A DNA stretch of 64,000 nt from Lutibacter sp. GTDB lineage: Bacteria > Bacteroidota > Bacteroidia > Flavobacteriales > Flavobacteriaceae. Below, piece by piece: positions 28,224-39,851 of the stretch (position 1 is its first letter; every line of letters begins with the position of its first letter). The translations under genes were made by a program, and so were the position numbers. Below the pieces are notes generated by a model that did no database searches, was not told the origin of the DNA, and saw only the letters and a list, made by a program, of their open reading frames with translations. Location: positions 1 through 64,000 of the forward strand of contig JAUYUA010000092.1 in the NCBI GenBank assembly GCA_030694935.1, given 5' to 3'.

Positions 28224-28965
28224 AGCGATTTTTTGATAATTTGATGATTGTCTTTTCCGTCTTTAAAGATATGATTTTCAATTTAATACTGCTGAATAAT
28301 TTTCATTTTAACTGTATTTTGATTATTTATTCAACTTGTAGGAAAAGATCATAAAACAAATTCTAAAATTGGCTATTGAGCATTGCTCTGTATAACTCTC
28401 TTTTATCTCAGCGTAAATGGTGAAATAATTATTGCACCGAGATTCACAGAGAAAAATATGGTTAAAAATATTTTTTAATTATTGAAGAATGAATAACAAC
28501 TACAATTGCCATATAATATTTGGCTAAAGCCAATTTGAAATTCAACATTTGCCCGCCAGCTAAAGCAGGCGGCAATTAAAAAACATTATAAATTAGGAAA
28601 AAGAATTGAATTGCCAGAGGCTTCAGCCTATGGAAATATAAACAGATCAGATACATCAAATTGGCTTTAGCCAAACTTAATCTGTTAGCTTTTTTTATCA
28701 ATATTTCATTATTTATTCAATTTGCGTTAGTGATTGAAGCGGAAATCCTTTTTTGAGGCTTTTTTTTGCCGAAAAAAAGATTGCAGCGGAAAGCACGCCC
28801 CGCCAGCTGGCGGGGAACGCCCACCAAAATGGCTGAAAAACCAAAATTTTACCAAAAATCACTCGAATTTCAGCTTAAAATTAGTCGATATTTTTTTACA
28901 ATTATTGAAATGATATTTTCAATAAAATCCGTAATTTCGCACACTAATTGATTTAAGGGCATAAA
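28224..28965. repeat. gene-free region with several repeat families, upstream of ileS
   Basis: 742 bp without a credible gene. It holds a CACAGAGA-rich tract near 28430-28460; palindromes TTGGCT-AA-AGCCAA (28520-28533), GCCCGCCAGCTAAAGCAGGC (from 28551) and TTGGCTTTAGCCAA (28661-28674); a duplicated word GATTG(A/C)AGCGGAAA at 28732-28745 and 28779-28792; and a perfect 18-bp palindrome CCCCGCCAGCTGGCGGGG (28798-28815). TAATTTCG at 28932-28939 may be the ileS -7 element. Confidence 0.8.
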
Positions 28966-37720: not shown

Positions 37721-39292
37721 TTAGTCAATTATTTTACCTTCATTGTCGGTAAAATCAAATCTTAAATATTGGTAGGTAATTCTAGGTAAAATTTTAATCC
37801 ACTTTTTATATTTTAAATACCATCGCATTTGAATAGATGGAAATCCTTTTTTTAAATAAGCCACAATAAAAGGATGTGTGTTTAAAGTAATATTTACGTG
37901 TGTTTTTGAGCTGACAAGTCTTTCAAGTTCTGATTCAATTTTATCCAATAAAATAATTGGAGACTCAACTTCGCCAACACCGCTAGGGTTAGGCTCTTGC
38001 GTTTTTATAACCATTTCTGGCCTTACGCGTTGTCTTGTAATTTGAATCAATCCAAATTTACTTGGAGGCAATATTTTATGTTTTGTTTTGTCAAACTCCA
38101 TTTCGGCCTTCAAATGGTCAAATAATTTTTGTCTGTGCTCAGGGGTGTTCATGTCAATAAAATCAACAACAATAATGCCTCCCATATCTCTCAATTGTAA
38201 TTGTCTTGCAATCTCTGAAGCTGCAATTAAATTTACCTCAAGTGCGGTGTCGGCTTGTGTGTTGGCTTTGTTTGAACGATTGCCGCTGTTTACGTCGATT
38301 ACATGAAGTGCTTCGGTATGTTCAATAACCAAATAGGCTCCTTTGCTCATAGAAACTGTTCGTCCGAATGATGTTTTTATTTGGCGTTCAATTCCATGTT
38401 TTTCAAAAATAGGAACTTGTGACTTGTATAATTGCACGATAGACTCTTTTTTAGGCGCTATTTCTTGTAAATACTCTTTAATTTCTAAATACAGAATTTC
38501 GTCATTAGTTACAATACTTGTAAACGAATCATTAAACAAATCTCTTAAAATTGACGAAGCTCTGTTTAATTCACTTAAAACTTTAACGGGTGCTTGTTGT
38601 GATTTTACGGTAACAATTTGTTTGCACATGGCAACCCATCGTTCTAAAGAATTTTGAAGATCTTTATCCAATTCTGCAACTTTTTTATTTTCGGCTACAG
38701 TTCTGATAATAACGCCAAAACCTTTAGGTTTAATGCTTTTGATCAGTCTTTTTAATCGTTCTTTTTCTTCGGGATCATTTATTTTTTGAGAAACTGAAAC
38801 CCTGTCAGAAAAAGGAACCAATACCAAATATCTACCCGCAATGGATATCTCTGAACTCATCCGCGGACCTTTGGTAGATATGGGCTCTTTTACAATTTGT
38901 ACTAATAAATTTTGACCTGTTTTTAGAACATCAACGATACTTCCGTTTTTGTCGATATCCTTTTCTAGTTGAAAATTCTTTAAAGTGAAATCTTTAATTT
39001 TACCTGTGGTGATACCTTTTATAAATTTATTTAAGGAAAGCATTTGAGCTCCTAAATCGTGATAATGCAAAAATCCGTCTTTTTCATAACCTACATCAAC
39101 AAATGATGCATTTAAACCAGATAGAACTTTGCCAATTCTAGCTAAAAAAACATCTCCTACGGAGAATTTATTGCTGTTGGATTCGTTGTTTAGTGCTGTT
39201 AATCTGCCGTCTTTCAATAAGGCAAAATCAATATCAGAGAAGTTTGATCTAATTATTAATTCTGTTTTCACTCTGAATTGTTTTGTGTTCAA
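37721..39292 (-). CDS. rng: ribonuclease G (Rne/Rng family)
   Basis: A 523-residue endoribonuclease acting in rRNA 5' maturation and mRNA decay. It has an S1 domain near the N-terminus (GDVFLARIGKVLSGLNASFVDVG), the 5'-sensor and RNase H-like region, and the DNase I-like catalytic site with the metal-binding aspartates in HVIDVNSGNR and VVDFIDMNT. The length and the lack of a long C-terminal scaffold fit RNase G rather than RNase E. It lies downstream of the 30-residue basic protein and hup genes. Confidence 0.93.
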   Translation of the reverse strand: MNTKQFRVKTELIIRSNFSDIDFALLKDGRLTALNNESNSNKFSVGDVFLARIGKVLSGLNASFVDVGYEKDGFLHYHDLGAQMLSLNKFIKGITTGKIKDFTLKNFQLEKDIDKNGSIVDVLKTGQNLLVQIVKEPISTKGPRMSSEISIAGRYLVLVPFSDRVSVSQKINDPEEKERLKRLIKSIKPKGFGVIIRTVAENKKVAELDKDLQNSLERWVAMCKQIVTVKSQQAPVKVLSELNRASSILRDLFNDSFTSIVTNDEILYLEIKEYLQEIAPKKESIVQLYKSQVPIFEKHGIERQIKTSFGRTVSMSKGAYLVIEHTEALHVIDVNSGNRSNKANTQADTALEVNLIAASEIARQLQLRDMGGIIVVDFIDMNTPEHRQKLFDHLKAEMEFDKTKHKILPPSKFGLIQITRQRVRPEMVIKTQEPNPSGVGEVESPIILLDKIESELERLVSSKTHVNITLNTHPFIVAYLKKGFPSIQMRWYLKYKKWIKILPRITYQYLRFDFTDNEGKIID

Positions 39293-39400
39293 ATAAATAA
39301 TTATGAGAACGATTTATACTAAGTTTTACAGGGTATATACCCAACAATATTTGCATTAACTGCAAATATTTATTTCAATGAACTTTTAAAATTGAAAAGA

Positions 39401-39425
39401 AAAAAGTAAGCCAAGCTTACTTTTT
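39401..39425 (-). terminator. terminator overlapping the stop codon of the 30-residue protein gene
   Basis: AAAAAGTAAGC-CAA-GCTTACTTTTT: a perfect 11-bp stem with a 3-nt loop and flanking T-tract. It includes the last codon and stop of the small gene, so termination sits right at the end of the coding sequence. Confidence 0.8.
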
Positions 39426-39509
39426 CTTTTTATGTCTGTTTGCTCTTGCTCTTTTTTTACGTTTATGGGTCGATATTTTCGCCCTCTTTCTTTTTTTACC
39501 ACTTGGCAT
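39417..39509 (-). CDS. 30-residue highly basic conserved small protein
   Basis: An ATG on the minus strand opens MPSGKKRKRAKISTHKRKKR followed by ARANRHKKKK and a TAA. Two thirds of the residues are Lys, Arg or His, which suggests an RNA-binding, ribosomal-type peptide. It sits between hup and rng and ends in a strong terminator. I recall near-identical short proteins in other Flavobacteriia, usually annotated as hypothetical. It could be a small ribosomal protein of the phylum (a large-subunit protein bL38 has been described from a Flavobacterium ribosome), but I cannot confirm identity. Its size means many gene callers miss it. Confidence 0.75.
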   Translation of the reverse strand: MPSGKKRKRAKISTHKRKKRARANRHKKKK

Positions 39510-39563
39510 AATTAAAAGTTGTTTTTTAAATTAATAAATATTTTTAACCTACTTCAATGTAGA

Positions 39564-39851
39564 TTATACTGCTACCTTACTTTTAACTCCTTCTACAAAT
39601 ACTTTTGCTGGCTTAAATGAGGGGATGTTGTGAGCCGGAATTTTAATGGTGGTGTTTTTTGAAATGTTTCTTCCAGTTTTTTCAGCTCTTGTTTTAATAA
39701 TAAAACTGCCAAAACCTCTTAAATAAACATTATCTCCTTTTTCTAAGGAGTTTTTTACCTCTTCCATGAACGCTTCAACAGTTGCTAAAACATCTGCTTT
39801 TTCTATTCCAGATTTGTCTGCAATATTTGATACGATTTCTGCTTTCGTCAT
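39564..39851 (-). CDS. HU-family DNA-binding protein
   Basis: A 95-residue nucleoid protein: helical dimer part (MTKAEIVSNIADKSGIEKADVLATVEAFMEEV), the GSFIIKTRAEKTGRNISKNTTI saddle and arm segment (RNISKNTTIKIPAHNIPSFKPAK) with the conserved proline of the DNA-intercalating tip. It bends and compacts DNA as a dimer. Transcribed from a well-formed promoter upstream. Confidence 0.95.
   Translation of the reverse strand: MTKAEIVSNIADKSGIEKADVLATVEAFMEEVKNSLEKGDNVYLRGFGSFIIKTRAEKTGRNISKNTTIKIPAHNIPSFKPAKVFVEGVKSKVAV

Follow-up and report, generated by a model that had tools for sequence, protein, structure and literature searches.

How a reading frame of only 30 codons, whose product would be extremely basic, is to be understood is the question raised by a locus between hup and rng in the DNA of Lutibacter sp. 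considered here, a stretch of 64,000 nucleotides referred to below as the window. The original prediction was of a genuine protein of ribosomal or RNA-chaperone type, possibly specific to the phylum, whose place beside an RNase was regarded as suggestive. The minus-strand frame at 39417..39509, which begins with ATG and ends with TAA, translates exactly to MPSGKKRKRAKISTHKRKKRARANRHKKKK, the peptide quoted in that prediction, which left the strand unstated, and the protein is real. The best explanation taken as a whole, with the mechanistic steps discussed below included, is almost certainly that the frame is the gene for a Bacteroidota-type “ribosomal protein bS22,” as supported by the reading frame, homology, conservation, and selection.

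The peptide contains 11 lysines, six arginines, two histidines, and no acidic residues, so that lysine and arginine account for 17 of 30 residues (57%); it thus falls within the size and basicity of the bS22 proteins of Bacteroidota and spirochetes (about 28–33 residues, more than half of them lysine or arginine). A gene so short is easily missed by annotation, yet it is real and highly conserved. Invisible to the standard Pfam and NCBIfam models, none of which was matched in scans of the 30-residue peptide, the gene has its place fixed by the present analysis.

Identity of the Encoded Peptide

A sequence search against solved structures returned three distinct chains, each either ribosomal or labeled AURKAIP1/COX24 and each aligned without gaps. 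The closest is the 30-residue chain 5 of 7jil, which we take to be the F. johnsoniae ribosome; it matches the peptide end to end, with 27 of 30 residues identical (90%, E = 2.9e-10). This F. johnsoniae bS22 (also in 9oz9, 9ozn, 9ozz, and 9p0e) has the same length and shows no substantial difference, the only changes being A10H, I12V, and S13A. Chain 10 of 9i5v (E = 4.7e-7), a Bacteroidota “AURKAIP1/COX24 domain-containing protein” of 30 residues also present in 9i5x, is 77% identical over its whole length, with S3N and further changes at residues 10–13 and 21–23. Chain V of 8fmw (E = 2.3e-6), the bS22 of Borrelia burgdorferi, covers 28 of 30 positions at 75% identity and retains the THKRKK and NRHKK cores, although it comes from another phylum and has a GUG start (PMC10618245). 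Homology to structure-proven bS22 of the Bacteroidota and spirochete type thus extends over the full length of the peptide.

The protein is already known, and its biology has been published for close relatives. bS22 had been seen earlier in mycobacterial and Bacteroidetes ribosomes, and the Borrelia protein is closer to that of F. johnsoniae than to the mycobacterial one (PMC10618245). The F. johnsoniae protein is also described in the C. acnes paper (PMC10085706); a later paper on F. johnsoniae bS21 does not mention bS22, and according to the literature the protein is absent from E. coli. The comparison with solved ribosomes therefore bears out the ribosomal half of the original prediction, the peptide being bS22, and its RNA-chaperone half is not needed. 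Another small basic ribosomal peptide, bTHX, was also considered as a candidate; the PDB search returned bS22 chains only.

Conservation and Distribution

Conservation extends beyond the genome in which the gene was noticed, where a genome search finds a single copy. bS22 is present in 40 of 40 sampled relatives, with an identical peptide in most of the genus, and in 378 of the 393 genomes drawn from across the phylum. From 59 distinct coding sequences a pN/pS of 0.106 was obtained, a ratio somewhat biased downward because the set was chosen for proteins starting MPSGKKRKR; differences at third codon positions (17,428) are in clear excess over those at second positions (1,774). Residues K6, K8, K11, T14–K19, N24, R25, and K27 are invariant in 14 diverse sequences, and the conserved core K.K..K..THKRKK....NR.K is found in the Lutibacter peptide. 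Even a 345-kb single-contig genome (G039, locus L123) has kept the gene, which here stands 30 nt upstream of rng with no HU found in its vicinity; retention in so strongly reduced a genome argues for an important role.

The distribution is at the same time broader than the phylum to which the original prediction would have confined it. Close homologues occur in Spirochaetes, in Neomarinimicrobiota, and on FCB-group contigs, and the protein is part of the Borrelia ribosome. No relative of bS22 was found among the viral contigs and phages searched.

Gene Order and the Overlapping Terminator

The upstream neighbor on the same strand is hup (39564..39851; PF00216, E = 8.1e-29), which encodes DNA-binding protein HU, and the downstream neighbor is rng (37721..39292, minus strand; PF10150, E = 1.6e-96), a member of the RNase E/G family whose true start may fall inside the listed reading frame to which these coordinates refer. 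The leader that separates hup from bS22 (39510..39563, minus strand) is A+T-rich on inspection and, judged by eye, contains no Shine-Dalgarno sequence. In 25 of 25 loci of the same genus HU lies 41–63 nt upstream of bS22 on the same strand, and rng lies downstream in all 24 of these loci whose contig extends to it. The order HU-bS22-rng is also kept in many other Bacteroidia, among them Tenacibaculum, Polaribacter, Flavobacterium, Myroides, Capnocytophaga, and several Bacteroidales; some families have insertions that separate HU from bS22. The full Flavobacteriales order HU-bS22-rng-MutY-SSB is seen as well on a contig filed under a SAR202 (Chloroflexi) metagenome-assembled genome (L066, VFGW01000013.1), which is probably misbinned. 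Elsewhere in the window, the only Rfam match is a Flavo-1 RNA (RF01705) at 28711-28804 on the plus strand, which scores 61 bits where the gathering score is 42.

A terminator scan, folding, and comparison of loci place an intrinsic terminator hairpin with a T-rich tail at 39400..39426 on the minus strand. Read in the direction of the gene it spans 39426-39400 and covers the TAA at 39419-39417, as had been claimed. The hairpin is poor in G+C, its 5′ arm being built from the lysine codons at the end of bS22 together with the stop codon, and folding predicts a longer stem of 34 nt; the inverted repeat scores on the plus strand too. Terminator-like sites in the region number seven, compared with 1.6 expected from shuffles. 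In 25 loci of the genus and 10 others of the family (L022, L023, L030, L033, L034, L051, L053, L058, L063, and L074) the hairpin starts 6–13 nt before the end of the stop codon, and AAR lysine codons together with TAA (or TAG) make up its 5′ arm, with stem bases that vary on both sides between genera (GTAAGC/GCTTAC versus GTAGT/ACTAC). Outside the family the hairpin, where found, is mostly downstream of the stop. A terminator that overlaps the stop is conserved throughout the loci inspected in this bacterial family, a compact arrangement in which A-rich lysine codons double as half of the predicted terminator.

Judging from the spacing and the hairpin, bS22 and hup are probably expressed from one mRNA, which would end at this terminator. 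The adjacency to an RNase that had seemed suggestive is indeed conserved, but it does not demonstrate a functional link between the two genes. The terminator lies between them and would separate bS22 from rng in transcription, so that their proximity cannot be taken as a sign of joint expression.

Alternative Explanations

The naming of the closest structural match is itself a source of conflict. The sequence of 7jil chain 5 carries two molecule names in the PDB, 30S S22 and “50S ribosomal protein L38,” and under the second of these the peptide would be the large-subunit protein bL38, a very unlikely assignment given that bL38 is a β-strand protein situated by uL6/uL14 and H95, unlike the helical and highly basic bS22 (PMC10618245), and that the homologue of the peptide in Borrelia is the 28-residue bS22 (8fmw chain V). 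As bL38 is described as a different β-strand protein of the 50S subunit, the L38 label is taken as a naming conflict, which the papers settle in favor of bS22, the helical 30S protein.

Activities outside the ribosome have been described for a protein of the same name, as the bS22 of C. acnes suppressed the growth of bacteria in disk assays and the free peptide, when added, inhibited cell-free translation (PMC10085706). That the Lutibacter peptide is antimicrobial or otherwise extra-ribosomal, rather than mainly ribosomal, is nevertheless extremely improbable: C. acnes bS22 is also a ribosomal component, the 30 residues include no secretion signal, and a core function in the ribosome accords with phylum-wide conservation, with presence in the 345-kb genome, and with the solved ribosome structures. 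A spurious short frame in A+T-rich DNA near a terminator, for which the very small size, low complexity, and lack of a Pfam or NCBIfam match might speak, has practically no probability left. Chance is ruled out by the single copy, by the occurrence in relatives and across the phylum given above, and by purifying selection, and the protein has a fixed gene order and structure-proven homologues.

Relation to Actinobacterial bS22 and Mitochondrial mS38

The bS22 of actinobacteria (M. smegmatis, 5o61; C. acnes, 8crx) and mitochondrial mS38/AURKAIP1/COX24 are reported to occupy the same pocket of the small subunit and to be superposable (PMC10618245, PMC10085706, PMC6582356); they are very basic short helices, as the Lutibacter peptide most likely is too. 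At the level of sequence this likeness is not recovered. The peptide has no hmmscan match to “COX24_C” (PF08213), and a genome-wide search with that model passes over its frame, giving in this genome and 13 others only a weak, unrelated match elsewhere (C72, 13.6 bits). An hhalign comparison with M. smegmatis bS22, using a query identical to the PDB chain listed for 5o61 and others, gave a probability of 4.5% over 17 columns, which is not significant, and profile searching of the PDB connected the peptide by sequence with neither actinobacterial bS22 nor mS38. Because kinship is undetected by sequence, the peptide is not filed under PF08213; the reported kinship rests on published superposition (PMC10085706, PMC6582356), according to which the peptide would work like actinobacterial bS22 and mS38.

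Genomes without Detectable bS22

Profile searches detected no bS22 in 15 of the 393 genomes of the phylum, and at E values up to 10 these 15 yielded nothing except, in one genome, a weak match of 13 residues within a longer frame. The 15 include all seven sampled members of one family, f50 (G185, G233, G237, G348, G362, G374, and G407), and five genomes of a genus, g105, of which they represent a part (G265, G313, G325, G377, and G428). The genomes of both groups are well-assembled Bacteroidota, and rng is present in six of the six that were searched for it. PF08213 has no match in the 11 of these 15 genomes that were searched with it, and in seven of the 15 no small basic frame up to 1.5 kb away from rng resembles bS22. 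The lack of a detectable copy in 15 of 393 genomes implies that bS22 is not universally required. Real loss and strong divergence are both possible, and the genomes of f50 and g105 are candidates for lineage-specific loss.

Proposed Place and Role in the Ribosome

In the ribosomes where it has been described, that of F. johnsoniae among them, bS22 binds a pocket formed by 16S helices h2, h27, h44, and h45 and touches H68 of 23S rRNA (PMC10618245); the h27/h44/h45 site has also been reported with a bridge to H67 (PMC10085706). Yeast mS38 (Cox24) is reported to be needed for stabilization of h44 and efficient assembly of the mitoribosome as well as for efficient initiation on certain mRNAs (PMC6582356). 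By analogy with these homologues, the location and role of the Lutibacter protein can be proposed. Most likely it forms a bent helix that lies within the small subunit, buried among h2, h27, h44, and h45, and would reach the large subunit at H67/H68, adding an inter-subunit contact. Its basic residues may neutralize phosphate charge and so glue h27, h44, and h45 together, stabilizing the decoding helix h44 and helping both its geometry and the joining of the subunits.

The role of yeast mS38 makes a part for bS22 in Shine-Dalgarno-free initiation conceivable. By stabilizing h44/h45 near the 3′ tail of 16S rRNA the protein may aid such initiation, and the conserved order hup-bS22-rng could couple ribosome assembly with rRNA processing; this extended reading as a whole is speculative and unlikely. 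If the initiation reading were true, f50 and the part of g105 that seem to lack bS22 would amount to natural knock-outs, from which compensating changes in the ribosome could be read. As an rRNA-binding protein close to the decoding helix, a region targeted by several antibiotics, bS22 is carried by most of the phylum.
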